From: Sphingomonas xinjiangensis
GTDB lineage: Bacteria; Pseudomonadota; Alphaproteobacteria; Sphingomonadales; Sphingomonadaceae
Direction: 5' to 3'
Assembly (NCBI RefSeq): GCF_014199255.1
Contig: NZ_JACIJF010000004.1
Span: forward strand, 310,001 to 374,000
DNA length: 64,000 nt
A program made the position numbers and the translations under genes. The notes under the pieces are model-generated. The model was given only the letters and a program-made list of their open reading frames with translations. It was not told the origin of the DNA and made no database searches. Below are positions 17,931-63,875 of this stretch, piece after piece (the stretch's first letter is position 1; each line of letters starts with the position of its first letter).

Positions 17931-17936
17931 TATAAT
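17931..17936 (+). promoter_or_regulatory. CTATAAT-type -10 element ahead of chemoreceptor 1
   Basis: TATAAT preceded by C (CCACGCTATAATGAC), about 70 bp before the chemoreceptor start. It is the first of 13 matching elements in the flagellar/chemotaxis half of the window. No GGCA half-site is seen at the usual upstream distance. Confidence 0.6.
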
Positions 17937-18004
17937 GACTTGGTTAAGGGCTCATAGCCGCATCACGGCTGCCCGGAACCTATTCACTACAGCGGACCTC
18001 ACCC

Positions 18005-19858
18005 ATGCTTGAGATGATCAATAACTGGCGGCTGGAAAAGAAACTCGTAGTCGCCTTCACCGTCATCGGGCTTCTGATGGCGGGCGTCGCCGGCGCCGGC
18101 ATTTACGTCATGTCGGAACTTGGAGCCATTGCGACGCGCCACGTAGAGCGCGGAGTCGCAGGTACGGAAACGCTTGGGAGGTTGATGTCGCACCTGCGCG
18201 AACATCGCATCATCGTCATCTCGCAGCTGACGCCCACAAACGATGGGGATCGCCAGAAGTATGTTGACCGCTACGCAGCCAACAAGGAAGCGATCAAGAA
18301 GGCAGTCGCGGACTACGAGCCGCTGGCCGGAGAGTTCCTGCCGGAGCTGAAGGCGATCGACGCGGACATCGCCAAGCTCGAAGACGTCAACGAACAGGTT
18401 TTCAAGCTGACGCTCAGCCAGGGCATGGCTGTGGCGCTTCCCTACTCCAAATCTGAAGGCAAGGATGCGTCCAGCACCGTGCTCAAGCAAGCCGAAGCGC
18501 TGATTGCCCTGCAGCAAAAGCGCTCCACAGCTGCAAATGATGCCGGTCAGGCCTTCGCGTCCAAGGCATTCTGGGCGGTTCTGATCTTGTCCGCGATGGG
18601 GCTCCTGGCACTCGCGGCCATCTGGAAGCTCATCGTGAAGACCGTGTCGTCCCCCCTGACCGACGTGTCGAAGGCCACGTCTGTGCTCGCCGCTGGTGGG
18701 ACCGCCGAAGTGCCTCACCGCAATCGCGCCGACGAACTGGGCGAGGTGGCCAAGGCAGTTGAGCTTTTCCGCGTCGCAGCGGTGGAGCGGGCCGAGGCGG
18801 ACCGAGTCGCGGCTGAAGCACAGCGGATCGTCACGTCGACGTTGCGCGACGGCTTGTCGTCGCTCAGCCAAGGTGACCTCACCGCTCAGATCAAGGCCGA
18901 TTACCCGGCGGACTATGCCGAGCTGAAGACCAACTTCAATGAAGCGCTGTCCAGCCTGCGCGGCCTGATCGGATCGGTGAGCGAGAGCGCCATCGCGATC
19001 CGCACCGGCTCAGGGGAGATTGCCCAGGCCTCCGAGGACCTGGCGCGCCGCACCGAAGCCAACGCCGCCAGCCTTGAGGAGACCTCTGCGGCGGTGACGC
19101 AGATGGACGGCCGCCTCAAGGCCACTGCCGACGCCGCCAACCGCACCGTGGTGCGCGCCGACGGCGCGATCTCCACCGTGGAAGGCGGCCGCACGATCGC
19201 CGACGAAGCGGTGCAGGCGATGGCGCGCGTCGCCGACGGCGCCAAGGGCATCGACAGCGTGATCGAAGGGCTCGACAAGATCGCCTTCCAGACGCGCGTT
19301 CTCGCCATGAACGCCGCGGTCGAAGCAGGCCGCGCGGGTGAGGCGGGCCGCGGCTTCGCGGTCGTCGCGGACCTGGTGTCGGCACTCGCCATGCGCTCGG
19401 AGGAAGAAGCCGCTCGCGCCCGCGATCAGCTCACCGCCACCCAGACTGACATCGTTTCCGCGGTGGAAATGGTGCAGAAGGTCGACGGCGCGCTCGCCAA
19501 CATCTCGGGCGACGTCGCCGAGGTCCACAGCCTACTCGGCCAGATGGCAGCCGACAATCAGGCGCAGTCCACGGCGATCAGTCAGATCAGCGTGGCGATC
19601 GGCACCATGGATCAGTCGACACAGCAGAACGCTGCCATGGTCGAGCAGACCTCCGCCGCTGCCCGCAACCTGACCAGCGAAGTGGCGACGCTCGCCGAAC
19701 AGGCCGCCAAGTTCGATGTCGGAGCAGCCGCGGCACCCAGGTCGTTCCGCCCGGCAGCGCCTCAGCCGCGCACCAAGAGCGCTGGCTACACCTCGCCGGT
19801 GAAGCCGCTGCCAGTGTCGATCTCGGCACAGGCGGAGGACGACTGGGCCTCCTTCTAA
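18005..19858 (+). CDS. Methyl-accepting chemotaxis protein
   Basis: A transmembrane chemoreceptor of 617 residues. TM1 lies at about residues 13-38, and a mostly helical 4-helix-bundle-like sensor region of about 140 residues follows. TM2 is at about 185-210, then HAMP segments, then a long coiled-coil signalling domain whose hairpin tip IAFQTRVLAMNAAVEAGRAG is conserved. It ends DDWASF, resembling the C-terminal aromatic pentapeptide that tethers CheR/CheB. The signalling domain is almost identical to that of the next receptor. It probably signals to the CheA/CheW encoded at 27040-29729. Confidence 0.93.
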   Translation: MLEMINNWRLEKKLVVAFTVIGLLMAGVAGAGIYVMSELGAIATRHVERGVAGTETLGRLMSHLREHRIIVISQLTPTNDGDRQKYVDRYAANKEAIKKAVADYEPLAGEFLPELKAIDADIAKLEDVNEQVFKLTLSQGMAVALPYSKSEGKDASSTVLKQAEALIALQQKRSTAANDAGQAFASKAFWAVLILSAMGLLALAAIWKLIVKTVSSPLTDVSKATSVLAAGGTAEVPHRNRADELGEVAKAVELFRVAAVERAEADRVAAEAQRIVTSTLRDGLSSLSQGDLTAQIKADYPADYAELKTNFNEALSSLRGLIGSVSESAIAIRTGSGEIAQASEDLARRTEANAASLEETSAAVTQMDGRLKATADAANRTVVRADGAISTVEGGRTIADEAVQAMARVADGAKGIDSVIEGLDKIAFQTRVLAMNAAVEAGRAGEAGRGFAVVADLVSALAMRSEEEAARARDQLTATQTDIVSAVEMVQKVDGALANISGDVAEVHSLLGQMAADNQAQSTAISQISVAIGTMDQSTQQNAAMVEQTSAAARNLTSEVATLAEQAAKFDVGAAAAPRSFRPAAPQPRTKSAGYTSPVKPLPVSISAQAEDDWASF

Positions 19859-19878
19859 GCTCTTTCCGTTCACCCAAG

Positions 19879-19911
19879 AAGGGCGTCGCGGCATCCCCGC
19901 GGCGCCCTTTT
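19879..19911 (+). terminator. Terminator after chemoreceptor 1
   Basis: AAGGGCGTCGCGG pairs with CCGCGGCGCCCTT with one G-T wobble; TTT follows. It lies about 20 bp after the stop. Confidence 0.8.
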
Positions 19912-20075
19912 CTGCATCCGCCGTTGATCGGCGCAAGCGATCTCAGTCAGCAATGAAATGTTTCAGATGTTTGTCTGCTTCTCAATCTCTGGGGTTCTAA
20001 AATCCATCTAAGGAGGGTGCCGGGCTGCCGAAGAACATTTCCCTACGTAAAAATACGGTGGCCGTTGCTCTCCCC

Positions 20076-20081
20076 TATAAT
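20076..20081 (+). promoter_or_regulatory. CTATAAT-type -10 element ahead of chemoreceptor 2
   Basis: TCCCCTATAATGCC, 80 bp before the start codon; it matches the C-TATAAT consensus found upstream of other motility genes here. Confidence 0.6.
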
Positions 20082-20160
20082 GCCGCATCGGGTCCCGCCC
20101 AGATAGGTTGATCCAAATCAAAGGGTTGCCACGGCGCAGGGCGAACAAAGGACGATTATA

Positions 20161-21519
20161 ATGCACTGGTTTAGAACCGACGCCCCTATACGCCAAAAGA
20201 TGCTGATCGTGTTCCAGACCATGATTGGCTTCATGGTGGCGATTCAGGCGTCGAGCTTTCTCGGCTGGGTGGGGCAAGCGATCAGCGTCGCACTGATCCT
20301 GACCGCCATCTATCTCGCTCACCAGTTCCGCAATGCGGTGTGCGATCCCTATGTCACCACCGTGGTACGCATGGAGGGGCTTGCCGCGGGCGACCTCAAC
20401 AGCCCTATTCTCTTCAACGACTATAAGGATTGTGTCGGCCGGCTTAGCCGGGGCATGGTCGGCTTTCGCGACGCCGCAGTGGCACAACGTCGTTCGGGCG
20501 AGGAGCAGGCCGAAGTGGTCCGCATTCTGGGAGAAAGCTTCTCGCGTCTGACGCAGGGCGATCTGACCGCGGACGTCACCGCCGACGTGCCGCCAGCCTA
20601 TGCCGAGCTCAAGGACAATTTCAACGAAGCGCTGGCAAGTCTGCGCACGCTGATCGGCTCGGTGAGCGAGAGCGCGATGGCGATCCGCACCGGCTCGGGC
20701 GAGATCGCCCAGGCGTCGGAAGACCTGGCGCGCCGCACCGAAGCCAATGCCGCCAGCCTGGAGCAGACCTCCGCCGCTATTACCCAGATGGACGGTCGAT
20801 TGAAGGCCACGGCGGAAGCCGCCACCCGCACCGTGCACCGCGCCGATGATGCCATCGCCACCGTCGATGGCGGCCGTGCGATCGCCGACGAAGCGGTGCA
20901 GGCGATGGCGCGCGTGGCCGACGGCGCCAAGGGCATCGACAGCGTGATCGAGGGGCTCGACAAGATCGCCTTCCAGACCCGCGTTCTCGCGATGAACGCC
21001 GCGGTCGAAGCAGGCCGCGCCGGCGAGGCGGGTCGTGGCTTCGCGGTCGTCGCCGATCTGGTGTCGGCCCTCGCGATGCGCTCGGAAGAAGAAGCCGCCC
21101 GCGCCCGCGATCAGCTCACCGCCACCCAGACCGACATCGTTTCCGCGGTGGAAATGGTGCAAAAGGTCGACGGCGCGCTCGCCAACATCTCGGGCGACGT
21201 CGCCGAGGTCCACAGCCTGCTCGGTCAGATGGCGGCCGACAACCGCGCCCAATCGAGCGCCATCGGCGAAATCAGCGTCGCGATCGGTACCATGGATCAG
21301 GCCACCCAACAGAATGCCGCCATGGTCGAACAGACCTCGGCCGCTGCCCGCAACCTCACCAGCGAAGTGGTGACGCTCGCCGACCAGACCGGCAAGTTCG
21401 AGGTCGGGCACAGCCGCCCCGCCCCGCTCCTTCTCGCCACAATCGGCGCCGCTTCGTGCGAAGAAGAACTATGTCTCGCCGGTGAAGCCCCTGCCCGCCG
21501 CGCGCGTGACGCAGGATGA
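20161..21519 (+). CDS. Methyl-accepting chemotaxis protein with apparent C-terminal frameshift
   Basis: A 452-codon chemoreceptor with two closely spaced N-terminal membrane segments (about residues 18-60) and essentially no periplasmic domain. A HAMP-like region (RMEGLAAGDLNSPI) and the same signalling domain as the previous receptor follow (IAFQTRVLAMNAAVEAGRAG). The frame as read ends with an unrelated tail. Removing one G from the GGG at 21406-21408 restores AAPPRSF, YVSPVKPLP and a terminal QDDWASF that aligns with receptor 1, ending at 21535. This is either a real one-base insertion that deletes the adaptation tether or a sequencing error. Confidence 0.88.
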   Translation: MHWFRTDAPIRQKMLIVFQTMIGFMVAIQASSFLGWVGQAISVALILTAIYLAHQFRNAVCDPYVTTVVRMEGLAAGDLNSPILFNDYKDCVGRLSRGMVGFRDAAVAQRRSGEEQAEVVRILGESFSRLTQGDLTADVTADVPPAYAELKDNFNEALASLRTLIGSVSESAMAIRTGSGEIAQASEDLARRTEANAASLEQTSAAITQMDGRLKATAEAATRTVHRADDAIATVDGGRAIADEAVQAMARVADGAKGIDSVIEGLDKIAFQTRVLAMNAAVEAGRAGEAGRGFAVVADLVSALAMRSEEEAARARDQLTATQTDIVSAVEMVQKVDGALANISGDVAEVHSLLGQMAADNRAQSSAIGEISVAIGTMDQATQQNAAMVEQTSAAARNLTSEVVTLADQTGKFEVGHSRPAPLLLATIGAASCEEELCLAGEAPARRARDAG

Positions 21520-21725: not shown

Positions 21726-22085
21726 TCAGGCGGCCAGACGCTGGACCTTCAGCCCGTCCATGACGGTACGGTTCAACGCGATCAGTTCGCCGATCGGTTC
21801 GCGGCCAGCCATCACGTCGCTGGTGAAGCGCTGCACCCACAGGCCCAGCGAGATGATCGACGCGCGCAGTTCGACGGGCAGGCTGTTCCCCTCGGCGCCG
21901 CAATCCGTCATGAACGCCGTCCACATCTCACGATTGCGGTGGAGCGGGTTGATCAGCTGGGCTCCCTTGAGACCTGCGGATTCCGCGTCCATCATTTCAC
22001 CGGTAATCTGGCTGAGCAGCCGGTGCTCCGCCGCACGCGGCGTTTCGGCCCGGCTGCGGGCCGCCTGATAGGCAGTAATGGTCAT
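21726..22085 (-). CDS. flaF: Flagellar biosynthesis regulator FlaF
   Basis: A 119-residue, all-helical protein of the alphaproteobacterial FlaF family, which with FlbT controls flagellin synthesis or secretion after transcription. Diagnostic stretches are AYQAARSRAETPRAAEHRLL, a central Asn/Arg/Met-rich HRNREMWTAF and a C-terminal LGLWVQRFTSDVM. It is transcribed alone, leftwards, with a good AAAGGAG site 8 bases before the ATG. The flbT partner is not in the window and flagellin lies 35 kb away. A minus-strand TAGAAT near 22115 could be its -10. Confidence 0.88.
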   Translation of the reverse strand: MTITAYQAARSRAETPRAAEHRLLSQITGEMMDAESAGLKGAQLINPLHRNREMWTAFMTDCGAEGNSLPVELRASIISLGLWVQRFTSDVMAGREPIGELIALNRTVMDGLKVQRLAA

Positions 22086-22148
22086 GCTGGCTCCTTTGAT
22101 GACCCGCTCATTCTAGAACGAAATCACAGGATCGGTCGGGTTCCTTCC

Positions 22149-22154
22149 TATAAG
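22149..22154 (+). promoter_or_regulatory. CTATAAG-type -10 element ahead of the HAD/methyltransferase pair
   Basis: TTCCTTCCTATAAGATT, 46 bp before the TTG start at 22200. It matches the motility consensus and suggests that the modification genes belong to the flagellar regulon. Confidence 0.6.
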
Positions 22155-22199: not shown

Positions 22200-24611
22200 T
22201 TGCCCGACATCATCCTTCCGCACGATCTTCCCACCGCGCTTGATGGTCGCGACGGGCTGAAGCTGCTATCGCTGGATTGCTTCGACACGCTGCTGTGGCG
22301 CGACTGCCACGCGCCCAAGGACCTGTTCGGCACGCTGCCCAACACCACGGTGACACAGCGCCAATGGGCCGAGCAGCGCGCTCGGGCTGGCGCCGAGTTG
22401 CGCCACGGCCGCGAAGAGGTCACCATCGCGGAAATCTACCGCGAGCTGCTGCCCAACGGCAGCGCGGACGACCGGAATGCGGCGATCCGCCACGAGCTCG
22501 ACGCCGAAGCCGCGCATTGCTTCGCCTTTGGACCGACAGTCAAGTTGATGCAGGCGGCCAAGCACCGCGGCATGCAAGTCATCATCGTCTCGGACACCTA
22601 TCTCGACGCGGACCGGCTGCGCGATCTGATCGCCACGGCGGCGGGCGAAGAAGTCGCCAGCCTGATCGACCGGATCTTCTGCTCGTCGGCCTATGGCAAG
22701 CCGAAGAGCATGGGTCTGTATGGCGAGGTGTTGAAGGCGCTGAACGTTCGCCCGCAAACAATCCTGCACATCGGCGACAACTTTCGTGCCGACGTTACGG
22801 GCGTTTCACCCTTCGGCGTTCATACGCTCCATCTCAAGCAATTTGACCAAGACACAGAACAGCGCCTGCGCCTGGAATCTGCGGTCAACGCCATGCTGCA
22901 CCCGGTGCAGACCGGTCTCGCCGCCACGCACCAGCCGCACCGCGCAACCTTGTCGGCGGTCGAGCCCACCATCCAGGACCCGGCCGAAGCGTTCGGCTTC
23001 GCCACACTCGGACCCGTGCTTCACGGCTATGACCGCTGGCTGGCCGCAGAGGCCGCAGAACTTGCCGCCAGGAACGGGGGCAAGATCCACCACGTATTCC
23101 TGATGCGCGATGGGTATCTGCCGCAGCTGGTGCATCAAGCGAGCGGCGGCGACGCCGGCCACGCGGTCGAGATCAGCCGCTTCACGGCCACCGCTGCTTC
23201 CTTCGTCGATGGCGAAGCAGTCGAGCGCTACATCCAGATCGAGGAAGAAAGCGAGCCCCGCGTCGTCGCCAAGCAGTTGCTGCTGGCACCTGCCGAAATC
23301 GACACGGTCCTCGGGAAGTCGCCGAGCGGCAAGGGTGCGTATGCCGCGCTTGCTCGCGCCGTCCGCACGCCCGCACGCCTGCGCCGTATCACGAACGCTT
23401 CTGCGGCGTTCGCTGACCGGCTGATTGCGCATGTCCGCCGCACCGTCGATCCCGCGCCCGGCGACACGCTGATGCTGGTTGACCTCGGCTACAACGGATC
23501 AGTTCAGAACGACATCGAACCGCTTCTGCGAGAGCGGCTGGGGGTGCATGTCGCGGGCCGCTACTTGCTGCTGCGCGAACAGTTCCGTGCGGGCTTGGAC
23601 AAAAAGGGCTTCATCGGCCACGATCAGTATGACGGTAGTACGCTGGAGGCGCTATGCACCAACGTTGCCGTGCTCGAACAGCTGTGCACCGTCGCGCAGG
23701 GCTCGGTGGTCGATTACCAACCCGATGGCACGCCGATCCGCAAGGGCAACAGCATCAAGGCGCGCCAAAGCGCGCTGCGCGAGCGTATCCAGGCCGGCTG
23801 TGTCCGCTTCAGTCGGTCCCAAGCGAGCATGACGATCCGCCGCGCCGCGCCGCACGAGGCTCAGATGTGGCGCCGCGCCGCTGCGGCCGTACTCGGTCGA
23901 CTCATGTATCTGCCGATGGCGCAGGAGCTGGCGGTACTGCGCGAGTTCGAGCATGACGTGAACCTGGGCGTCGACGATACCGTGGCGCTGTTCGATCATG
24001 CGATCGCGCACCGTGGCCTGCGCCGTCGCGGCCTGTTCTACATGAAGGGTGCCGACCGCATGTACCTGCCCGCCGAACTCCACGGCGAAGGCTTGGCGCT
24101 CAAGCTCAGCCTGTTGACGCACAAGCGCTTCGGCCTGGGATTGAAGCATGCTGACTTCGTCGACCGCACCCTCTCGCTGCCGGTGATCGTCGCCGACGGA
24201 CGTGACGTCTCCACCAGCACCGTGAACGCTACTCCAACGCATGACGGCTATTACCTCGCGGCCATCCCGGTCGGTGATTGCCGCCTGTCCATTGGACTTC
24301 AGTTCGGCAAGCTGTTCGATTGGGTACAGGTCGAGAGCGCGGTATTCGTGCCGGCATCACACTTCGGCGACAAGCGGGGCCCCGGGTCGGAAGAAGTCGA
24401 TGGCCTGCCCTCGCTGGATGGCATGGAGCAGACCGCGCCGCACTTGTTCCGCTGCGCCGATGCGAGCGCCTTCATGATGGTTCCGCCGCCGCCCCGCCGC
24501 GACGACCGGCAGATGCTCCTGGCCGTCACCTTCCGCCCCATCGCCCCGCGTCAGGCACCGCCCGCCGCGGCCGCCCATACCCTAGCCCACGCTTCGGGAG
24601 TTTCCGCATGA
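22200..24611 (+). CDS. Large HAD-superfamily protein, probable flagellin/glycan modification
   Basis: A protein of 803 residues. The N-terminal HAD domain has motif I LLSLDCFDTLLWR (DxxxT-type nucleophile region), motif II VIIVSDTYLDADRLR, a Lys in YGKPKSMG, and ILHIGDNFRADVTG as the metal-binding motif. A second half (about residues 280-800) has HVFLMRDGYLPQLVH and LVDLGYNGSVQ, seen in large HAD proteins linked to glycan loci; its function is unknown. TTG 22200 is chosen because AGGGA lies 8 bases upstream; earlier starts lie before the promoter. It is coupled to a methyltransferase by ATGA. A role in modifying flagellin is inferred from position. Confidence 0.75.
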   Translation: MPDIILPHDLPTALDGRDGLKLLSLDCFDTLLWRDCHAPKDLFGTLPNTTVTQRQWAEQRARAGAELRHGREEVTIAEIYRELLPNGSADDRNAAIRHELDAEAAHCFAFGPTVKLMQAAKHRGMQVIIVSDTYLDADRLRDLIATAAGEEVASLIDRIFCSSAYGKPKSMGLYGEVLKALNVRPQTILHIGDNFRADVTGVSPFGVHTLHLKQFDQDTEQRLRLESAVNAMLHPVQTGLAATHQPHRATLSAVEPTIQDPAEAFGFATLGPVLHGYDRWLAAEAAELAARNGGKIHHVFLMRDGYLPQLVHQASGGDAGHAVEISRFTATAASFVDGEAVERYIQIEEESEPRVVAKQLLLAPAEIDTVLGKSPSGKGAYAALARAVRTPARLRRITNASAAFADRLIAHVRRTVDPAPGDTLMLVDLGYNGSVQNDIEPLLRERLGVHVAGRYLLLREQFRAGLDKKGFIGHDQYDGSTLEALCTNVAVLEQLCTVAQGSVVDYQPDGTPIRKGNSIKARQSALRERIQAGCVRFSRSQASMTIRRAAPHEAQMWRRAAAAVLGRLMYLPMAQELAVLREFEHDVNLGVDDTVALFDHAIAHRGLRRRGLFYMKGADRMYLPAELHGEGLALKLSLLTHKRFGLGLKHADFVDRTLSLPVIVADGRDVSTSTVNATPTHDGYYLAAIPVGDCRLSIGLQFGKLFDWVQVESAVFVPASHFGDKRGPGSEEVDGLPSLDGMEQTAPHLFRCADASAFMMVPPPPRRDDRQMLLAVTFRPIAPRQAPPAAAAHTLAHASGVSA

Positions 24612-25420
24612 GCCTGTTGATCCATTCCATGTCCGAGTTTTCCGACATCATCCTAGGCACGCTGCACGCCGCCGAAGCGCGCGCGATCACGGAAATCGGC
24701 GCCGAATTCGGCGGCATGTCGCAACAGCTAGCCGCCTATGCCCAAGTGCTCGGCGGCAGCCTGACCAGCATCGATCCCGCGCCGAAGCCCGAGTTTCTCG
24801 ATTGGGTCGCCTCCGCTCCGGCCGTGCGCCACATCGCCGGAACCAGCCTTGAGGTGATGGCCGACTGCCGCGATGTCGATGCCTGGGTGATCGACGGCGA
24901 CCATAATTATTACACGGTCTCCAACGAGCTTCGCATAGCCGATGAACTGTCGCGCCGCGACGGCAAGCCGCTTCTGCTCATCCTGCACGACATCAGCTGG
25001 CCCTGCGCCCGCCGCGACAGCTACTACGCGCCCGAACGTATTCCTGCCGACCATCGTCATCCGTACAGCTTCGATGGTGGCGTCACCATCGGCGACCCCG
25101 GCTGCGCGGACGGGCGCGGGTTCCGTGGCATGGGCCAGTTCGCCTGGGCCACCCATGAAGGCGGCCCACGCAACGGGGTCCTGACCGCGGTCGAGGATTT
25201 CCTCGCGCAAGCCGATACGCAGGCGCGTCCGCTGTCGTTCGCCAACATCCCCGCGGTGTTCGGCCTGGGCATTGTGTTCGATGCGTCCGCCCCTTGGGCC
25301 GCGGAGGTGACCCGCGTGGTGGAGCCTTATCACAACAACAGCCTGCTCGCCTCGCTCGAGCTCAACCGCCTCCAGAACTATCTGGCGGTGATCGACGCGC
25401 AGGATCGCCTCGCCGCGTAA
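24608..25420 (+). CDS. Class I SAM-dependent methyltransferase-like protein
   Basis: A 270-residue protein coupled to the HAD gene by an ATGA overlap. The Rossmann-like start ARAITEIGAEFGGMSQQLAAY resembles the SAM-binding motif I region. LTSIDPAP is a candidate acidic loop, and AWVIDGDHNYYTVSNEL is typical of Methyltransf_24-type enzymes, followed by LLLILHDISWP. These enzymes often methylate sugars or amino groups in glycan pathways. Together with the HAD protein and the nearby flagellar genes it suggests modification of flagellin or its glycan. The substrate cannot be read from sequence. Confidence 0.72.
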   Translation: MSLLIHSMSEFSDIILGTLHAAEARAITEIGAEFGGMSQQLAAYAQVLGGSLTSIDPAPKPEFLDWVASAPAVRHIAGTSLEVMADCRDVDAWVIDGDHNYYTVSNELRIADELSRRDGKPLLLILHDISWPCARRDSYYAPERIPADHRHPYSFDGGVTIGDPGCADGRGFRGMGQFAWATHEGGPRNGVLTAVEDFLAQADTQARPLSFANIPAVFGLGIVFDASAPWAAEVTRVVEPYHNNSLLASLELNRLQNYLAVIDAQDRLAA

Positions 25421-25460
25421 CTTTAATGGCCGGGAACCCGCCAGCAGGTGGGACCCGTCC

Positions 25461-25466
25461 TATAAT
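25461..25466 (+). promoter_or_regulatory. CTATAAT-type -10 element ahead of motA-che operon
   Basis: CCCGTCCTATAATTGA, 36 bp before the motA ATG. It is the only recognisable promoter for the long chemotaxis operon that follows. Confidence 0.65.
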
Positions 25467-35822: not shown

Positions 35823-36414
35823 TCAGTGCCTCGCGAACCGCGCGGCGGTTCCACCGGGCAGTGTCGCGCGGGCGGCGGGTGCGCTTCGCTGCGGGATTGG
35901 CGGCTTCCGCTTTGGCCTTGCGGCGCTCGGACAGGTCGACGACCTCGGCCAGCTCTGCGGCGGGCGCTTCCACCACGACGTTGTCCTGCTCGGTTGCCAG
36001 GGGCTCGACGGCGATCACCGCGTCCTGCACCTCCGCCACGTCGTCCTCGACAGGCTTGGGCAGCTTGATCAGCTTTGCGAAGTTGGCTGCAAAGGCTGGC
36101 AGTTCCGGCATAGCCAGCTTGACCGGCTCGGGCGCGGGCTGCGCGGGCGGCGCGATGATGCCGGTTTCCAGCGTAGCGCTGCCCTCGGGGCCGATCAGCA
36201 CCAGATGCTCATGTCCGTCCCGGCGGATCAGCGCCACTGACCGCTTCTGGTCCAGCGACAGCCGCTCCACCAGTTCGACGCGCTTGCGGCTGGTGGCCGA
36301 CACGCGGCCCGGCAGTTTGATGTCGTACCGCTTCACCATCCACAGCGCGCCCGCAAGCATGCCCAGGACGAGGCCCAGCGCACCCAGGGTACGCAGCATC
36401 GACAAGATATCCAT
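35815..36414 (-). CDS. fliO: Flagellar export assembly protein FliO
   Basis: A 199-residue membrane protein with one helix (TLGALGLVLGMLAGALWMV) near the N-terminus, a conserved cytoplasmic patch RVELVERLSLDQKRSVALIR, and a long Ala/Pro/Glu-rich tail ending in basic residues. FliO assists assembly of the FliP-containing export gate. The ATG overlaps the upstream fliN stop, and its end overlaps fliP. Confidence 0.85.
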   Translation of the reverse strand: MDILSMLRTLGALGLVLGMLAGALWMVKRYDIKLPGRVSATSRKRVELVERLSLDQKRSVALIRRDGHEHLVLIGPEGSATLETGIIAPPAQPAPEPVKLAMPELPAFAANFAKLIKLPKPVEDDVAEVQDAVIAVEPLATEQDNVVVEAPAAELAEVVDLSERRKAKAEAANPAAKRTRRPRDTARWNRRAVREALNA

Positions 36415-36650
36415 CAGTGGCGCTGCTTCTTCACGAGGTCGGAAATTTCCAGCGACATCTGGTCGCCATCGACCAGGATGCGGCCTGTGGCGACCAGTTC
36501 GCCGTTGACATAGACAAGGCTGGGATCGTCCTGGCCGCAATCCAGGGCAATCATTGCCCCGCGGCTCATCTGCAGGATCTGCCGGATCGGCACTTCGGCG
36601 GAGCCGAGCACGATCGACAGGTCCACCATAATTCCATCGAGTACGGACAT
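36414..36650 (-). CDS. fliN: Short FliN-type (SpoA domain) switch protein
   Basis: A 78-residue protein consisting of a SpoA/FliN domain only: VDLSIVLGSAEVPIRQILQM, PSLVYVNGELVATGRILVDG. It is the first gene of the leftward export operon. A second, longer FliN is encoded at 49499-49849, so this may be a paralogue with a different place in the C-ring or in sorting-platform-like contacts of the export gate. The ATG lies 20 bp from the CTATAAA promoter region. Confidence 0.85.
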   Translation of the reverse strand: MSVLDGIMVDLSIVLGSAEVPIRQILQMSRGAMIALDCGQDDPSLVYVNGELVATGRILVDGDQMSLEISDLVKKQRH

Positions 36651-36669: not shown

Positions 36670-36675
36670 TTTATA
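36670..36675 (-). promoter_or_regulatory. CTATAAA-type -10 element for fliN-fliO-fliP
   Basis: On the minus strand, CCTTCCTATAAAGTC lies 20 bp before the short fliN start. A perfect GGCA-N5-TGCC palindrome starts 45 bp upstream of it, the same distance as the distal site at fliF. Confidence 0.6.
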
Positions 36676-36707
36676 GGAAGGATTTTCCGGGGCCTGCGCG
36701 GCGGGGC

Positions 36708-36720
36708 GGCAAAAATTGCC
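36708..36720. promoter_or_regulatory. GGCA-N5-TGCC palindrome (putative FlbD-type operator)
   Basis: GGCAAAAATTGCC on the plus strand, flanked by CTAG, in the divergent space between fliN-O-P and flgC. It lies 45 bp from the fliN-side TATAAA. It resembles the Caulobacter ftr element bound by FlbD as I recall it (CGGC..AAA.GC), which is established knowledge; binding here is inferred. Confidence 0.6.
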
Positions 36721-36970: not shown

Positions 36971-37378
36971 ATGGACTTGAAGGCTTCGCTCGGCGTTTCC
37001 GCATCCGGCCTGCGTGCGCAGTCGCTGCGCATGCGTGTCATTGCGGAGAACCTGGCCAACCAGGACTCCGTCGCGAACACCGCCGGGGGTGATCCCTATC
37101 GCCGCCGCGTCGCCAGCTTCTCAGCCGAGGTGGATCGTGCGACGGGCGCCACCGGCGTCAAGATCAAGTCGATCGAAAACGACAAGTCCGATTTCACTCG
37201 CGTGTACCAGCCCGGCCACCCAGCGGCGGACGGCGAGGGCTATGTGCTCAAGCCCAACGTCAACTCGCTGGTAGAAACCGCCGACATGAAGGCGGCCCAG
37301 CGTAGCTACGAAGCCAATCTCAATGCCATCGAGGCCGCAAAGAGCCTGACGATGCGCACCATCGACCTTCTCAAGTAA
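36971..37378 (+). CDS. flgC: Flagellar proximal rod protein FlgC
   Basis: A rod protein of 135 residues. The N-terminus LKASLGVSASGLRAQSLRMR with ENLANQDSV, DPYRRRV in the middle and the C-terminal coiled helix SLVETADMKAAQRSYEANL are FlgC hallmarks. ATG 36971 gives the family-typical MDL start with GGAG 9 bases upstream; ATG 36950 would add seven residues. It heads flgC-fliE-fliQ-fliR-flhB. Its usual partner flgB lies 6 kb away on the other strand. Confidence 0.92.
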   Translation: MDLKASLGVSASGLRAQSLRMRVIAENLANQDSVANTAGGDPYRRRVASFSAEVDRATGATGVKIKSIENDKSDFTRVYQPGHPAADGEGYVLKPNVNSLVETADMKAAQRSYEANLNAIEAAKSLTMRTIDLLK

Positions 37379-39986: not shown

Positions 39987-40412
39987 TCAAGCCTCGACGT
40001 CGTACTTCGCCAGCTCCACCCGCACGCGCAGGTCGATATCCGCAAGAATCTGCGCCAGCACCGGCTCGTCGGGCGTATCGAGCGTCTGCGACCACTGCGC
40101 GATCTCCCGCAGGCGCTCGACGCTGGGCACACCCACCAGCACTTCCTTGTGGAGATGGTCGAGCATCTCGACCCCGCGCTCGGCCTGGGCGGCAAGTCTC
40201 CGGCGACGATCCATCATCGGATCGGCAGCGGCAAGCGTCACCAGCATGGCGACGTTGGGCACCGGGTTGGTGACGTTGGTCTGCTGCTGAAGCGGGAGCG
40301 GCGCTGCGGCGGGCGCCTTCTCTTCGCGCGTCACCGAGAAGCTTTCCGCAGCCTTGGGCAACGCAGCCAGCAGGCTGTGCGCCATCAGTTGAGGGATATT
40401 CTCGATCCGCAC
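39987..40412 (-). CDS. fliX: Class II flagellar assembly regulator FliX
   Basis: A 141-residue homologue of Caulobacter FliX, which in that organism controls FlbD activity according to flagellar assembly state. The C-terminal half matches the family: MMDRRRRLAAQAERGVEMLD, a TPDEPVLAQIL segment and the ending DLRVRVELAKYDVEA. The GTG at 40412 has AAGGA about 10 bases upstream; an ATG at 40445 would add 11 residues. It is divergent from flgI, the same arrangement as in Caulobacter. FlbD is encoded at 49849. Confidence 0.88.
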   Translation of the reverse strand: MRIENIPQLMAHSLLAALPKAAESFSVTREEKAPAAAPLPLQQQTNVTNPVPNVAMLVTLAAADPMMDRRRRLAAQAERGVEMLDHLHKEVLVGVPSVERLREIAQWSQTLDTPDEPVLAQILADIDLRVRVELAKYDVEA

Positions 40413-40453
40413 GAAATACAGGTCCTTTGAGCCGCACCGGCCCATCCTTGTCC

Positions 40454-40459
40454 TATAAG
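40454..40459 (+). promoter_or_regulatory. CTATAAG-type -10 element ahead of flgI
   Basis: CTTGTCCTATAAGAAGG, 43 bp before the flgI ATG and 42 bp from the divergent fliX start. A degenerate CGCACGAAATACAGG sits about 45 bp upstream; no perfect palindrome. Confidence 0.58.
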
Positions 40460-45861: not shown

Positions 45862-45888
45862 CGCGACCCCGCATCCGCATCACCCTCC

Positions 45889-45894
45889 TATAAT
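45889..45894. promoter_or_regulatory. Symmetric CTATAATAG element between flaEY-like gene and fliG
   Basis: CCTCCTATAATAGAGG gives TATAAT towards fliG (64 bp before its ATG) and CTATTATAG towards the FlaEY-like gene (28 bp before its ATG). No GGCA palindrome is seen nearby. Confidence 0.6.
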
Positions 45895-45957
45895 AGAGGG
45901 ACATGTGACCCGCCATGTGCGGCCACGACCATTAATTTTGCGTGAGGGTCCCCGACC

Positions 45958-47773: not shown

Positions 47774-47804
47774 GGCAAAAAATTCCCACCCGGCACAAAC
47801 TGCC
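47774..47804. promoter_or_regulatory. Two GGCA-N5-TGCC-type sites ahead of fliF
   Basis: Site 1, 47774-47786, is GGCAAAAAATTCC (one mismatch in the right half). Site 2, 47792-47804, is GGCACAAACTGCC (perfect). They are 18 bp apart, 45 and 27 bp upstream of TATAAG at 47819. CCGGCACAAACTGCCG closely resembles the Caulobacter FlbD-bound ftr pattern. Confidence 0.65.
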
Positions 47805-47818
47805 GCCCGCCACCCTCC

Positions 47819-47824
47819 TATAAG
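47819..47824 (+). promoter_or_regulatory. CTATAAG-type -10 element ahead of fliF
   Basis: CACCCTCCTATAAGTTAA, 53 bp before the TTG start of fliF, with two operator-like sites upstream. Confidence 0.65.
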
Positions 47825-49498: not shown

Positions 49499-49849
49499 AT
49501 GAACACCGAACCCCATGACATCATCCCCAGCGACGCCTCCGATCCGGCCGGTCCCGTGTTCGAGGACTTCACCGGCGGCGCTGCAGACCATGCCGCTGCG
49601 CAAGGTTCCGAAGCACTCGAAGCCGTCCATGACGTGCCCGTAAAGGTTCAGGCGGTGCTCGGCCGCGCCCGCATGCCGGTCGGCGAACTGCTCCAGCTCG
49701 GCTCAGGCACGGTGGTCGAGCTTGATCGCCGCGTCGGTGAGCCGGTGGACATCTTCGTCAACGATCGCCTGATCGCCCGCGGCGAAGTGGTGCTGATCGA
49801 CAACGCGCTAGGCGTCACCCTCACCGAAATCGTGCGGCAGGACCGTTGA
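49499..49849 (+). CDS. fliN: Flagellar motor switch protein FliN (full length)
   Basis: A 116-residue C-ring protein with an acidic, Ala-rich N-terminal extension and a C-terminal SpoA domain: VHDVPVKVQAVLGRARMPVG, SGTVVELDRRVGEPVDIFVN, RLIARGEVVLIDNALGVTL. ATG 49499 is chosen because AAGGA lies 6 to 7 bases upstream. The stop overlaps flbD by TGATG. This is the typical FliN; the short paralogue is at 36414. Confidence 0.93.
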   Translation: MNTEPHDIIPSDASDPAGPVFEDFTGGAADHAAAQGSEALEAVHDVPVKVQAVLGRARMPVGELLQLGSGTVVELDRRVGEPVDIFVNDRLIARGEVVLIDNALGVTLTEIVRQDR

Positions 49850-51180
49850 TGTCGGCCATCCGCATGTTGTTGGTTGGCGTACCCGGCAGCGAGTTTCGGC
49901 TTGCCGCCGAACTCGCCCGCGGCTCGGGCGCCGACGTCACCATGGCCGACACGGCTGACCAGGCGCTTGAAATGCTCCGCGCCGAGGGTGCCGACCTGGT
50001 CATGATCGATGTCGAGACCGACGTGCCCGGCTTCATGGCGCGTCTGCGCGCCGAACGCTTCCCGGTGCCGGTGCTGGCCTGCGGGATCGAAGCGCCGGCT
50101 GAGCGTGCCGTCGCCGCCATCCGCGCCGGTGCCCGCGACTATGTCCCCCTGCCCCCACAGCGCGATCTGATCGCCGCCGCCATAGCCTCGGTGGTGACGC
50201 GCAAGCCCTCCAGCAGCATCGGCGCCCATCCCGCGGTGGCCCGCGCCATGGCACTTGCCGGCGCGGTCGCCCCGACCGGCGCGCCAGTGCTTGTGACGGG
50301 TGAGAAGGGCAGCGGCAAGGAAACCATGGCCCGCGCCATCCATGACGCGTCCGGGCGGGGCGACCCGCTGCTGGTCGCCGAATGCGCCGGCGTCGCCGCC
50401 GAGGTGCTCGAATCCGATCTGTTCGGCCACGAAGCCGGCGCCTTCCCCGCTGCCGCGGCACGCCGCATCGGCCGCCTGGAGCAGGCCGGCACTGGTAGCA
50501 TCATCCTGCGCGAAGTGGGTGCGCTTGCCCCCACCACTCAGGCCCGCTTGCTCGCCGCGATCATCGAAGGCCGCTTCACGCGGATCGGTGGCACCGAGCC
50601 GGTGCCGTTCCGCGCGCGTCTGATCGCCACCACCAGCATGGACCTGGAAGACGCCGTCGAAAGCGGCAGCTTCCGCGCCGACTTGCTCGTCCGGCTAGGG
50701 CTGGTCCGCGTCGCCGTGCCGTCCCTGCGCGAACGCGGCGACGACGTGATCCAGTTGGCCAGGCACCTGGCCGAACGCCTCGCCCACAATGACGGCGTGC
50801 TCGTCCGCCCGTTCAGCGACGCCGCGCTGGCATTGCTCGCCGGTTATCCTTGGCCGGGCAACATCCGCGAGCTTGAGGATTGCGTGCATCGCGCAGTGCT
50901 GCTCGCTGCAGGTACGGAGATCGACGCCGGGGACTTCGTCCTTTCGGACGGCACGCGCCTGATCGACCTTGAACAGAGCGAACCGAACCGCTTTCAGATC
51001 GAGAGCCTGGTCGGCCGCACGGTGGAAGAAGTCGAGCGCGAGCTGATCCTGCACACGCTGGTGCGCTGCCAGGGCAACCGCACTTCGGCCTCGAACATCC
51101 TGGGCATTTCGGTGCGCACCATGCGCAACAAGCTGCGGACGTTCATCGAAGCCGGCATCGCCGTCTCGCCTGCGATCTGA
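49849..51180 (+). CDS. flbD: FlbD-type transcriptional regulator with degenerate AAA+ motifs
   Basis: A 443-residue regulator in the position of Caulobacter flbD (after fliN, before flhA). The N-terminal receiver is degenerate: no Asp pair (MLLVGVPGSE) and no switch Lys. The AAA+ core keeps Walker A GEKGSGKE (151-158), but the sigma54-contact loop reads GAFPAA (197-202) instead of GAFTGA, and Walker B reads IILREV with Arg 221 in place of Asp. The C-terminal Fis-type helix-turn-helix is intact (NRTSASNILGISVRTMRNKL). DNA binding is likely; sigma54 activation is doubtful. FliX, its probable partner, is at 39987. Confidence 0.88.
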   Translation: MSAIRMLLVGVPGSEFRLAAELARGSGADVTMADTADQALEMLRAEGADLVMIDVETDVPGFMARLRAERFPVPVLACGIEAPAERAVAAIRAGARDYVPLPPQRDLIAAAIASVVTRKPSSSIGAHPAVARAMALAGAVAPTGAPVLVTGEKGSGKETMARAIHDASGRGDPLLVAECAGVAAEVLESDLFGHEAGAFPAAAARRIGRLEQAGTGSIILREVGALAPTTQARLLAAIIEGRFTRIGGTEPVPFRARLIATTSMDLEDAVESGSFRADLLVRLGLVRVAVPSLRERGDDVIQLARHLAERLAHNDGVLVRPFSDAALALLAGYPWPGNIRELEDCVHRAVLLAAGTEIDAGDFVLSDGTRLIDLEQSEPNRFQIESLVGRTVEEVERELILHTLVRCQGNRTSASNILGISVRTMRNKLRTFIEAGIAVSPAI

Positions 51181-53428: not shown

Positions 53429-53437
53429 TTACTCTCC

Positions 53438-53443
53438 TATAAT
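53438..53443 (+). promoter_or_regulatory. CTATAAT-type -10 element ahead of fliK
   Basis: TTACTCTCCTATAATGATC, 48 bp before fliK. A CGGCA half-site starts 24 bp upstream (53414), inside the end of flhA. Confidence 0.6.
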
Positions 53444-55848: not shown

Positions 55849-55938
55849 GCGTTGAGGGGGTTCCCGAAACGGCCCCGGGGCAAACCCGTAGCGGGCATCT
55901 GCTGAGCCTGCCGGGCGGTCGCGGGCCTACCGCCTTGC

Positions 55939-55944
55939 TATAAT
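55939..55944 (+). promoter_or_regulatory. Extended -10 promoter for the putative small RNA
   Basis: CTTGCTATAATGA: TATAAT with TGC directly before it (extended -10). It belongs to the C-TATAAT set but leads to no coding region; the next plus-strand structure is an RNA hairpin. Confidence 0.65.
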
Positions 55945-55950
55945 GAAAGA

Positions 55951-56078
55951 AGAGAAGCGGGCGGGCCGGTTCATCCCCTCTACGGACCGCCCGCTTCTCC
56001 CCCTATCCGTGTTTTTCCCTAGGCACGGCTGTACAAGCGTAGCGCAGGCCGGTTGTTCGCAACCGGCCTGCTTTCGTT
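55951..56078 (+). ncRNA. Putative small RNA with two strong stem-loops
   Basis: It begins about 7 bp after the extended -10. Stem 1 is a perfect 13-bp pair, GAGAAGCGGGCGG (55952-55964) with CCGCCCGCTTCTC (55987-55999), enclosing a 22-base loop and followed by TTTTT at 56012. Stem 2 is a perfect 12-bp pair, GCAGGCCGGTTG and CAACCGGCCTGC (56044-56071), with a UUCG tetraloop and TTTCGTTT after it, a good terminator. The loop of stem 1 contains GGCCGGTT, which also occurs in stem 2, so the two stems could compete. No ORF of quality is present on either strand across it. Confidence 0.68.
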
Positions 56079-56179: not shown

Positions 56180-56581
56180 TCAGTGCACTCGCGCCTCCGC
56201 GCGGCGGCCCAGCTCGCGGGCATGCGCGCTCACCAGGCACAGCTCGGCATAGAGCCGGTCCCAGAACGGTGCTGGGATATCCAGTGGCATCTCGCCGCCT
56301 TGCTTCAGCCCCAGGCAGGCGGCCGGCTGGAGCGCCAGCGCGAAGCGCGTGCCGAACGTCCCATCCACCTGCTCTTCGGGCAGCGCGTGCGGCACGGCGA
56401 GCCTGGCGGACATGATATAGCCCGAAAGCACTTCGACCCCATAACCGTCTAGCAGCACGCGCGGTTGGCCGTTCACGTCGGGCCGTTCCAGGACGATCAG
56501 CGCGCCCCGGGGATGCTCCTCCACGCTCACCCGCAGGCGGCTGCCGAACGCATCGGTAATTTCACGAATTCGAGGGAACAA
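56180..56581 (-). CDS. Hypothetical protein downstream of flagellin
   Basis: A 133-residue protein of unknown family, predicted mostly mixed alpha/beta with no signal peptide: GSRLRVSVEEHPRGALIVLE, VRPHALPEE-like AVPHALPEEQVDG, and QGGEMPLDIPAPFWDRLYAE. TTG 56581 is chosen because CAGGAG lies 8 bases upstream; a GTG at 56590 sits too close to that site. It has its own CTATAAG promoter after the flagellin terminator, so it belongs to the motility regulon by promoter type. Confidence 0.62.
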   Translation of the reverse strand: MFPRIREITDAFGSRLRVSVEEHPRGALIVLERPDVNGQPRVLLDGYGVEVLSGYIMSARLAVPHALPEEQVDGTFGTRFALALQPAACLGLKQGGEMPLDIPAPFWDRLYAELCLVSAHARELGRRAEARVH

Positions 56582-56604
56582 GTGTAACACTCCTGTCTCC
56601 CTTC

Positions 56605-56610
56605 CTTATA
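56605..56610 (-). promoter_or_regulatory. CTATAAG-type -10 element ahead of the hypothetical gene
   Basis: On the minus strand, TTATTCTTCTATAAGGAAG, about 25 bp before the TTG start. A CGGCA half-site starts 24 bp upstream. Confidence 0.58.
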
Positions 56611-56644
56611 GAAGAATAAACCATCGCCCGTGCCGCTGCGGCGA

Positions 56645-60727: not shown

Positions 60728-60740
60728 GGCAGAAATTGCC
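60728..60740. promoter_or_regulatory. GGCA-N5-TGCC palindrome between flgF and fliL
   Basis: GGCAGAAATTGCC, flanked by CTA, 25 bp upstream of the fliL TATAAT and about 30 bp from the flgF GTG. It lies where it could activate fliL and block or activate flgF. Confidence 0.65.
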
Positions 60741-60752
60741 GGGTGACGCCTC

Positions 60753-60758
60753 TATAAT
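60753..60758. promoter_or_regulatory. Symmetric CTATAATAG element between flgF and fliL
   Basis: CCTCTATAATAGGAAG: TATAAT towards fliL (57 bp to its ATG) and CTATTATAG towards flgF. Confidence 0.62.
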
Positions 60759-60814
60759 AGGAAGAAATCGGGCGGCTCGGTCGCCGGAACGCAGATTTTC
60801 TAGAGGACCCAGGA

Positions 60815-62771: not shown

Positions 62772-63328
62772 TGGCACGCCCCTCCCTCCTCCTGATGACC
62801 GCCGCCGCTTCTGCGCTCGCGGTCGTCGCCAACGCTGCCAGCATCGCGGCGCCCGACGCGCAGAACGCGCCCAAGACCCGCCTCGGCAATTCGATCGAGC
62901 AGGACCTGAGTGCCAGCGACGCCGCGGCGGCGCGCCGCAAGCGCGGTCTGGATCTGCGCGAACAGGCTGCCAAGGCTGCCGAGGCGCGGCTTCAGGCCGA
63001 CATGGCGGCGCGTCAGCAGCAGCAGGCCGCCACGACGCAGACCGCCGCCAATGGTGGCCCTGCCGAGGCGCCCGACGCGCAGTTCGACGAACTCGCCCGC
63101 ATCTATCAGGCGATGAAGCCTGCAAAGGCTGCGCTCGTGTTCGAACAGCTGGAGATGGAAGTGCAGATGAAGGTCGCGCAGCGCATGCGCGAGCGTTCCA
63201 CGGCACTGATCCTGGCGGCGATGACTCCCAAGGGCGCCGCTGCGCTTTCCATGGCGCTCGCGCGCCGCAGCGCTGGTCGACCGCAAGTCGCGGCAGCCGG
63301 GCCCAAGCCAGTCCCGAAAGCGCGCTAA
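62771..63328 (+). CDS. MotE-like periplasmic flagellar protein
   Basis: A 185-residue protein with a signal peptide or anchor (AAASALAVVANAASIAAP), a coiled coil (DLREQAAKAAEARLQADMAA), and a C-terminal MgtE-N-like part IYQAMKPAKAALVFEQLEME with RSTALILAAMTPKGAAALSM. It resembles MotE, the alphaproteobacterial stator-related chaperone. It follows fliM and the DUF gene in one operon. Confidence 0.72.
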   Translation: MARPSLLLMTAAASALAVVANAASIAAPDAQNAPKTRLGNSIEQDLSASDAAAARRKRGLDLREQAAKAAEARLQADMAARQQQQAATTQTAANGGPAEAPDAQFDELARIYQAMKPAKAALVFEQLEMEVQMKVAQRMRERSTALILAAMTPKGAAALSMALARRSAGRPQVAAAGPKPVPKAR

Positions 63329-63349
63329 GCCTTTCTGACAACAACGAAA

Positions 63350-63377
63350 AAAGGCCGGAGCATCCACTCCGGCCTTT
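63350..63377. terminator. Terminator after the fliL operon
   Basis: AAAGGCCGGAG and CTCCGGCCTTT pair perfectly (11 bp) and are followed by GTTGTTTT. It also serves the converging FliL-like gene through the preceding A-run. Confidence 0.88.
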
Positions 63378-63407
63378 GTTGTTTTCCGCGTCGACCAGAT
63401 AGTGGCT

Positions 63408-63824
63408 TCAACCCGCCGAAGCCGACACCTCGACGATGAGCACCTTTGCGATGCCCGGGTTGGCTACCTTGATCGCAGCCGTCAGGTCATGATCCAGCCG
63501 CTCGGCGTCCACCGCCCGCAGACCCGACGCGTTCAACCGCGCAAACTCCAGCCCCGCAGCGACCGTCGCCTGGCGCAGCATGGGCATCTCCGCGGTGGCC
63601 TTGGCCGCAGCCTCGGCATTCGCGGCTTCCAGCACCAGCTTGAACTTGAGCGAACCGCTTACCCGATCGGCGTCGATGATCGGCACGATGACCTGCTCCA
63701 TCGTCACTAGGTTGAGGCCCTCGGCACTGCCGCCGCCGCCGCCCGAAGCCTGGGCATCGCCGCCCGGCAGCGGCAACACCGCCGACGAAGCCAGCGCCAG
63801 CGCTGCCATGGTTCCGTTACGCAC
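63408..63824 (-). CDS. FliL-like exported protein, paralogue of the motB-linked gene
   Basis: A 138-residue protein with a signal peptide (MAALALASSAVLPLPGGDAQA) and a periplasmic domain VIVPIIDADRVSGSLKFKLV with LRAVDAERLDHDLTAAIKVA and IAKVLIVEVSAS. It aligns by eye with the product at 33756-34205 and more loosely with FliL. It is divergent from the last, truncated gene over a symmetric CTATAATAG element. Confidence 0.62.
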   Translation of the reverse strand: MRNGTMAALALASSAVLPLPGGDAQASGGGGGSAEGLNLVTMEQVIVPIIDADRVSGSLKFKLVLEAANAEAAAKATAEMPMLRQATVAAGLEFARLNASGLRAVDAERLDHDLTAAIKVANPGIAKVLIVEVSASAG

Positions 63825-63869
63825 ACGAATCTCCTGTGAACCCGGCAGCCATTCAGACCGCCAATCCTC

Positions 63870-63875
63870 TATAAT
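63870..63875. promoter_or_regulatory. Symmetric CTATAATAG element at the right end
   Basis: CCTCTATAATAGGAG: TATAAT towards the truncated gene at 63902 and CTATTATAG towards the FliL-like gene (46 bp to its ATG). A CCGGCA half-site starts 26 bp upstream of the TATAAT. Confidence 0.62.

Follow-up and report, generated by a model that had tools for sequence, protein, structure and literature searches.

A conserved CTATAA promoter-like class in a flagellar gene cluster of Sphingomonas, and a sigma-70-family gene that may encode its reader

INTRODUCTION

This report concerns a promoter-like element, CTATAA, that recurs ahead of motility genes in a flagellar and chemotaxis cluster of Sphingomonas xinjiangensis, and a divergent sigma-70-family gene at the end of that cluster whose product may read it. 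The window, meaning the whole stretch of DNA analysed, comprises 64,000 nucleotides (positions 310,001 to 374,000, forward strand, of contig NZ_JACIJF010000004.1 in RefSeq assembly GCF_014199255.1).

One alphaproteobacterial scheme for comparison is the Caulobacter hierarchy of FlbD/FliX, sigma-54 and CtrA, for which we draw on portions of PMC3096577 and PMC3930126; in the latter, FlbD represses fliF via ftr4 and activates later genes. The present cluster likewise encodes FlbD, a FliX-like protein, FlbT and FlaF, and has palindromes at fliF that fit FlbD repression. It differs in that its FlbD is without the sigma-54 loop, consensus sigma-54 promoters were not found ahead of its flagellar and chemotaxis genes, and CtrA-like sites lie mainly at flagellin.

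According to the available sections of PMC12826043, Alphaproteobacteria have no known sigma factor specific to flagella; the paper reports an extracytoplasmic function (ECF) factor in Azospirillum. That factor, RpoE6 of Azospirillum brasilense, is comparable as an alternative sigma gene within an alphaproteobacterial flagellar cluster, but it belongs to the ECF group and acts on a minor flagellin, whereas the predicted targets here are most flagellar and chemotaxis operons.

Nearer in taxonomy, and by description apparently the same system, are the clusters of Sphingomonas sp. WG (PMC8921679), which are also without fliA or flhDC and have FlbD, FliX and FlbT. Its authors take regulation to follow the Caulobacter pattern, FlbD serving as an activator of sigma-54 transcription, and the accessible part of the paper names no cluster sigma factor; it does mention FliA genes in S. 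wittichii and strain A1. PMC13015449 reports, in the part available, that plant-associated Sphingomonas often have two independently acquired flagella with differently expressed flagellins. That part does not explain what separates the two, and neither 'sigma' nor 'promoter' appears anywhere in the main text. Among the literature titles we searched, which did not extend to subscription papers (e.g. on Sphingomonas sp. A1 and S2M10), none dealt with this promoter class or this sigma gene.

RESULTS AND DISCUSSION

CTATAA elements in the window

A sequence-only reading of the window had listed thirteen sites, and each does read C-TATAA followed by T, G or A. Its plus-strand numbers, marking the T of TATAA, are right, while both minus-strand numbers are some bases off, the true spans being 36671-36676 and 56606-56611. 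All thirteen sites are intergenic; the remaining two window copies (20421 and 25729) are intragenic. Such a set had been called unlikely by chance, and CTATAA occurs 15 times on both window strands against a mean of 1.43 and a maximum of 5 in 100 dinucleotide-preserving shuffles of the window. YYCTATAA is found 72 times in the whole 4.47 Mb genome, 11 of these in the window, and TCCTATAA 18 times, half of them (9) within the flagellar cluster of ~57 kb. The gene assignments mostly hold, e.g. that of the minus-strand site at 36675, ahead of a FliN-domain gene, fliO and fliP. That of 63870 was wrong: a short open reading frame (ORF) and then a 574-aa gene lie downstream, not fliL, which instead follows 60753.

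The elements are listed below by window coordinates and strand. Gene names are from NCBIfam and Pfam, and gene starts from our own codon-score caller. The flank score ignores the core.

17930-17935, plus: CTATAAT promoter-like element, 74 bp ahead of a chemoreceptor gene (18005-19858); flank score 8.6
20075-20080, plus: CTATAAT element ahead of a chemoreceptor gene (20200-21519); flank score 2.6, modest
22148-22153, plus: CTATAAG element ahead of HAD-hydrolase-like and methyltransferase-like genes (22200-25420); kept in 5/5 relatives; flank score -3.0, low
25460-25465, plus: CTATAAT element ahead of motA and the che operon; conserved 9/9
36671-36676, minus: CTATAAA element ahead of the FliN-domain gene (36414-36650), fliO and fliP; conserved 4/4; flank score 13.7
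40453-40458, plus: CTATAAG element ahead of flgI; conserved 6/6; flank score 8.0
45888-45896, both strands: CTATAATAG ahead of fliG-fliH, a candidate -10 on either strand; divergent gene 43081-45801 (minus); fliG 8/9; flank score 15.0, the highest
47818-47823, plus: CTATAAG element ahead of fliF-fliN-flbD; conserved 8/8; flank score 14.1
53437-53442, plus: CTATAAT element ahead of fliK-flgD; conserved 4/4; flank score -1.2, low
55938-55943, plus: CTATAAT element ahead of a predicted hairpin small RNA; flank score 0.4
56606-56611, minus: CTATAAG element ahead of a 136-aa gene (56180-56590) upstream of the flagellin gene; 3/4
60752-60760, both strands: CTATAATAG between flgF (minus) and fliL-fliM (plus), a candidate -10 on either strand; fliL 4/5
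63869-63877, both strands: CTATAATAG ahead of the short ORF and 574-aa gene, a candidate -10 on either strand; divergent gene 63408-63824, a weak FliL match

Conservation across Sphingomonas clusters

We label the window's flagellar system alpha-type and a second system, described below, the other type. Alpha-type clusters from 12 Sphingomonas genomes (the window's and eleven more) supplied 179 regions upstream of flagellar and chemotaxis genes and 230 upstream of other genes in the same stretches, leaving out genes with an upstream gap of less than 45 bases and blast matches below 35% identity. CTATAA is the most enriched 6-mer, present in 86/179 flagellar/chemotaxis regions vs 14/230 others. 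The class is thus concentrated on motility genes, as the sequence-only reading proposed, and is not equally common upstream of non-motility genes, which that reading had named as the outcome that would count against it. TATAA preceded by G, A or T is rare, occurring in 1, 1 and 2 of the 179 regions. Seven further genomes gave CTATAA in 59/112 upstream regions.

Orthologues keep the element. It precedes fliF in 8/8, motA in 9/9, flgI in 6/6, the HAD/methyltransferase pair in 5/5, fliK in 4/4 and the FliN-domain/fliO/fliP operon in 4/4 cases, as well as fliG (8/9), fliL (4/5) and flbT (10/12). We conclude that these sites almost certainly form a real, conserved promoter-like class.

The earlier suggestion that one class drives early and late genes together stands only in part. 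The strict motif is found at C-ring, MS-ring, export, P-ring, motor, chemotaxis and some chemoreceptor genes. It precedes flgE in only 3/12 cases and was not found before flagellin (0/8), flgF (0/5), flgK (0/3), flaF (0/9) or the fliX-like gene (0/6). When mismatches were allowed, with the tested gene excluded from training, regions above the 95% null threshold numbered 4/5 for flgF, 6/12 for flgE and 2/8 for flagellin; the same scan recovered fliF (8/8), flgI (6/6) and motA (7/9) but fliK in only 2/4 and sigF, the sigma-70-family gene, in 4/12. The hook and rod genes carry one-mismatch versions of the class, and flagellin only a weak, degraded one.

Elsewhere in the window's genome, 5/17 chemoreceptor genes have an upstream match above the 95% null, a count that omits one fragment below cut-off and the two cluster-internal genes. 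Other families gave CTATAA in 3/76 upstream regions vs 136/776 (operon-internal genes included), a weak comparison because few genes matched and G+C differs.

Promoter anatomy

Promoters were aligned on CTATAA with its C as 0, initially 86 and then the full set of 146. Members of the class combine an A/T block ~38 bases upstream, a CCG where the -35 would lie, TCCTATAAT and, at the probable start, a purine. Among the 86, the A/T block lies at -38 to -35; the -35-place element has C at -20 (61%), C at -19 (63%) and G at -18 (49%), with T almost excluded just before it; TCC occupies -2 to 0, T or G stands at +6, and a purine then A at +13/+14. An SSACCG-like -35 therefore accompanies the TCCTATAAT consensus. 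In the full set the A/T share is 80% at -38 to -35 vs 31% at -30 to -23, TCC stands ahead of TATAA in 88/146 promoters, and +13 is a purine in 126/146. We infer that transcription starts at this conserved purine, 13-14 bases after the C; counted from there, the A/T block would fall near -50 and the other two blocks would be the -35 and -10 elements.

The sequence-only reading had reported no -35 box. TTGAC is indeed at the -35 place in 0/146 promoters, yet a -35-position element, the CCG, does exist, weak in this genome. TTGACA is enriched ahead of other genes (12 vs 4.3 expected).

When trained on other genomes, the gene in question left out, the flank score separates 14 cluster sites of the window's genome from 30 intragenic sites (p 1.1e-7), the small-RNA site being outside this test. 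Eleven of the 14 score above every intragenic site; the exceptions are fliK, the HAD pair and one chemoreceptor. At fliG, fliL and 63869, CTATAATAG presents a -10 on both strands, which fits the divergent promoters as scored separately, and the three divergent gene pairs with a common CTATAATAG may possibly have bidirectional promoters.

A sigma-70-family gene linked to the cluster

The cluster runs on for 10 kb beyond the window through flbT-fliI, a gene in the fliJ place and one unnamed gene to a divergent sigma-70-family gene, which we call sigF (346 aa; L001:9947-10987, contig C4:383947-384984). It follows the same four genes in 18/18 clusters, two of them with one intervening gene. Pfam region 4 is above cut-off and region 2 just below, and by these two regions SigF is assigned to the sigma-70 family. 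Its AlphaFold model matches sigma factors, domain 2 best. Against the FliA/WhiG profile TIGR02479 of NCBIfam it scores 30.6 bits (27.2 in the genome search), where the cut-off is 189.6. The sequence-only reading had missed this gene, which lies beyond the window, as well as the A/T block, the CCG and FlbD's loss of its sigma-54 parts.

Among 61 genomes of the genus, 18 have both alpha-type FliG and sigF, one has sigF alone (G043), none FliG alone, and 42 neither. On contig C6 (L122-L125), G043 carries part of an alpha-type cluster, in which sigF, flbT and genes for hook, rod and flagellin are present but the cluster's FliG is not. Genomes with sigF (n=19) have a median of 13 copies of TCCTATAAK, those without (n=42) a median of 2 (p 3.7e-7). 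Predicted in advance for 24 unseen genomes, sigF was found in 6/9 with counts of at least 9 and in 1/15 of the rest (p 0.004).

Protein and promoter also vary in parallel. Region 2 of SigF hardly varies, and neither does the -10; for region 4 there are two main types, A and B. CCG is at the -35 place in 17/32 promoters of type B genomes, 18/105 of type A and 4/9 of the intermediate G017; genomes added afterwards gave 2/4 (one type B) and 11/56 (six type A). Across its final 80 residues RpoD is the same in 18/19 of these genomes and 99% identical in the last, so RpoD region 4 does not explain the CCG shift. The SigF of G070 was assigned to type A by 78% identity, its region 4 not being read, because the gene is in pieces, apparently at contig ends. 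These pieces lie on contigs C2, C3, C5 and C8 (L148-L151), some at contig ends, and may perhaps reflect a repeat-broken assembly of two sigF copies, not a broken gene.

Close relatives of sigF in named genomes are all from Sphingomonas (29/29 loci returned); in a protein search, Stakelama and Sphingosinicella are also present among the best 120 of 728. Both S. trueperi DSM 7225 and S. pituitosa NBRC 102491 encode a relative of sigF. The window's genome (G000) has two unlinked sigF paralogues, C3:360245-361201 and C29:6457-7413 (L100 and L101), with 96% and 82% identity over residues 1-319. A CTCTATAAT with a good score lies about 440 bases upstream of the C29 copy.

Two flagella

The window's FliG is common to only some members of the genus, at 71-90% identity. 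Most have a second FliG, ~26% alike, instead of or besides it. In 40-kb stretches around this other-type FliG from ten genomes, five of which also have sigF, CTATAA was found in 0/153 upstream regions, counting all called genes of the stretches and not flagellar genes alone.

Canonical FliA is above cut-off in 21/28 genomes; together with the FliA genes mentioned in the accessible part of PMC8921679, this establishes that it occurs in the genus. It is not above cut-off in G000, G002, G035 and G078, all four of which have only alpha-type FliG. The other gaps are G018, without a FliG match, G038, whose FliA is in two pieces, and G043, just below cut-off. The distribution thus pairs FliA with the other flagellum and sigF with the alpha-type one.

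Palindromes, FlbD and sigma-54

GGCA-N5-TGCC occurs in 41/179 flagellar vs 2/230 other upstream regions and in 46/146 promoters, where the boxes gather at two positions: -38 to -35 (19 boxes, chiefly those of flbT and the FliN-domain operon) and -23 to -18 (24 boxes, chiefly those of fliF and fliL). FlbD is the natural candidate for this palindrome because its Caulobacter counterpart represses fliF at ftr4 and activates later genes; by that analogy FlbD presumably binds here. The window has these features:

36708-36720, minus: GGCA-N5-TGCC palindrome, centre 38 bases upstream of the C; putative FlbD-type activator site
47792-47804, plus: GGCA-N5-TGCC palindrome covering the -35 region of the fliF promoter; putative FlbD-type repressor site
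60728-60740, plus: GGCA-N5-TGCC palindrome in the fliL promoter spacer; putative FlbD-type repressor site
49849-51180, plus: FlbD, with GAFTGA changed to GAFPAA in the sigma-54 loop and Walker B Asp to Arg; Fis-type DNA-binding domain retained

The GAFTGA loop is altered in 12/12 full-length FlbD proteins of this Sphingomonas system, and the Walker B Asp is Arg in the 8 copies where the position was read. Related families of the same order have both motifs intact in 19/19 FlbD, from a set of 23 genomes less four in which the top match was not clearly FlbD. The FlbD of G017 has lost its AAA+ domain (146 aa), and that of G069, at 147 aa by our gene caller, is outside the alignment. The Fis-type helix-turn-helix (HTH) is retained, scoring 46.2 bits in the window's FlbD.

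The sequence-only reading saw no sigma-54 GG-N10-GC pair at these sites, and the wider comparison agrees: at 9/12 matches or more to the consensus (GG-N10-GC, TGGCAC...TTGCA context), only 1/179 flagellar/chemotaxis regions qualifies, before fixL. Sites at 11/12 number 0 in 84 kb of G000 vs 2 in seven other-family control clusters; this positive control is thin, with one of its two sites 266 bp before a flgK match and 0/76 gene-upstream regions at 10/12. The consensus strings scanned for sigma-54, CtrA, FliA, ECF and RpoD are those of general knowledge.

CtrA-like TTAA-N7-TTAA is found in 8/179 vs 3/230 upstream regions. TTAA-N7-TTAACC lies about -160 upstream of flagellin in 4/8 regions, and also ahead of sigF in G002 and G035. 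CtrA is an unlikely general reader; CtrA-like sites are confined mainly to flagellin.

What reads the class

We think it rather likely that the class is read by RNA polymerase carrying the flagellum-linked SigF and not RpoD. The A/T block, CCG-type -35 and TCCTATAAT form one promoter-like class conserved in this Sphingomonas flagellar system, and SigF, encoded at the cluster end, would be its reader. FlbD, its DNA-binding domain kept, would work without sigma-54, activating from about -38 at flbT and the FliN-domain/fliO/fliP operon and repressing from about -20 at fliF and fliL. The class would serve basal-body, motor and chemotaxis genes and the small RNA jointly, with one-mismatch versions at hook and rod genes, while flagellin, the weakest version, would be set apart by its CtrA-like site.

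Several observations weigh against SigF. The flank score is low for fliK, for the HAD pair and for the small RNA (0.4), and the -35-place CCG is present in just 1/14 promoters of the window's own genome. The structural model has a pTM of 0.37 and only single-domain matches. Co-occurrence of sigF and motif is partly automatic and no proof of reading, because both sit in one cluster. G071, G072 and G076 have at least 9 motif copies without sigF, G015, G034, G038 and G043 have sigF and only 2-4 copies, and the strict motif stands ahead of sigF itself in only 5/12 genomes. The contrast between region 4 and CCG is essentially one evolutionary event. Pfam still recognizes the whole sigma-54 interaction domain in the window's FlbD (153.4 bits). 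Some class sites precede genes without a known motility link, e.g. a lactate/malate dehydrogenase gene.

As a separate observation, that site (L026:2192, G000 contig C3) is CTCTATAATG, with a high flank score of 8.2, ahead of a lactate/malate dehydrogenase family gene. It might reflect a metabolic link of the class or be an ordinary RpoD site.

TATAAT is also the usual sigma-70 -10, so RpoD, the housekeeping sigma factor, is the main rival as the reader. In such a scheme an activator, e.g. FlbD, at the A/T block or palindrome would replace the -35, and SigF would have some other task. The position of the A/T block, at -38, would suit an activator or the alpha subunit, palindromes do lie at -38 at flbT and the FliN-domain operon, and some CTATAATG sites are ahead of genes without a known motility link. 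We nevertheless consider RpoD somewhat unlikely. The palindrome is in a minority of promoters (46/146), and the absence of TTGAC from the -35 place is set against its enrichment, as TTGACA, ahead of other genes. TCC is conserved before TATAA, the end of RpoD is constant among genomes that differ in -35 preference, and the second flagellar system of the same genomes is without the class.

Another sigma factor, or several, is a good deal less probable still. The window's genome has three sigF copies, and ECF factors were outside our survey, so an ECF factor, RpoH or an unlinked sigF paralogue could be proposed; across genomes, however, the linked copy is the only one associated with this flagellum, and neither the ECF element GGAAC nor the RpoH elements were seen in the promoter alignment.

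Canonical FliA (sigma-28) and sigma-54 are both very improbable. The FliA regulon of enteric bacteria is one of the closest known parallels: there too a sigma-70-family protein encoded with the flagellum serves motor, chemotaxis and flagellar genes, and its -10, GCCGATAA, is matched by TCCTATAA at 6/8 places. It differs in the low SigF score against the FliA profile, in the TAAA-type -35 that is missing here, and in flagellin, which here is the weakest target. FliA-type promoters (GCCGATAA with a TAAA-type -35) were not seen in the alignment, where the consensus is TCCTATAAT with the SSACCG-like -35; no FlgM was identified, though no search aimed at FlgM was made. FliA goes with the other flagellum, and in G000, G002, G035 and G078 the class is present without FliA above cut-off, which refutes FliA there, barring a gene missed in assembly gaps. 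For sigma-54, RpoN is encoded in the window's genome, but consensus sites were not found ahead of the flagellar and chemotaxis genes and FlbD is altered, and it was rejected as reader. Chance or composition can be set aside: intergenic stretches are generally richer in A/T, but the shuffle counts, the retention before orthologues, the rarity of TATAA after other bases and the 0/153 around the other flagellar system all speak against it.

About evenly balanced, in our judgement, is a fuller history in which the regulon left sigma-54: FlbD would have lost its sigma-54-contact and ATPase residues to become a plain DNA-binding switch, a new, non-FliA sigma factor would have taken over the class, and FliA and SigF would keep the two flagella of one cell apart. 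If true, the two flagella would each have a sigma factor and a promoter code to themselves, a testable answer to how they are separated. It would also correct the assumption, in the available part of PMC8921679, of FlbD there as a sigma-54 activator, and would mean that an enhancer-dependent regulon can move to another sigma class with apparent operator sites retained.

Small RNA and other genes of the cluster

The predicted small RNA after flgD begins directly 3' of its CTATAAT element. The hairpin is present in 5/10 genomes inspected, with base changes on both stem sides; Rfam gave no small-RNA match above gathering score. It and two further genes named above are:

55949-56072, plus: predicted small RNA, a long hairpin with loop AUCCCCUC, then a terminator-like stem
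21726-22085, minus: flaF, above the NCBIfam cut-off (96.2 vs 91)
39987-40445, minus: fliX-like gene (FlbD partner in Caulobacter), below curated cut-offs (48.1 vs 153)

Named genes of the cluster are the chemoreceptors, motA-che, the FliN-domain gene with fliO and fliP, flgC, fliE, fliQ, fliR, flhB, flgI, fliG-fliH, fliF-fliN-flbD, flhA, fliK-flgD, flagellin, flgH-flgA-flgG-flgF and fliL-fliM; flaF, the fliX-like gene and a flgB-like gene are further members. A profile check upheld flgE, flgF, flgG, flgA, flgK, flgL-like, flbT, fliI, fliK, fliE and fliQ, and identified the gene at 36971 as flgC and that at 37406 as fliE.

At 14424-17747 (plus) a FixL/FixJ-like pair adjoins the chemoreceptors, and similar genes are close to the cluster in several relatives; the pair might perhaps provide an oxygen input into motility. 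At 43081-45801 (minus), divergent from fliG, is a 906-aa SBBP/beta-propeller-like protein with a homologue in most clusters compared.

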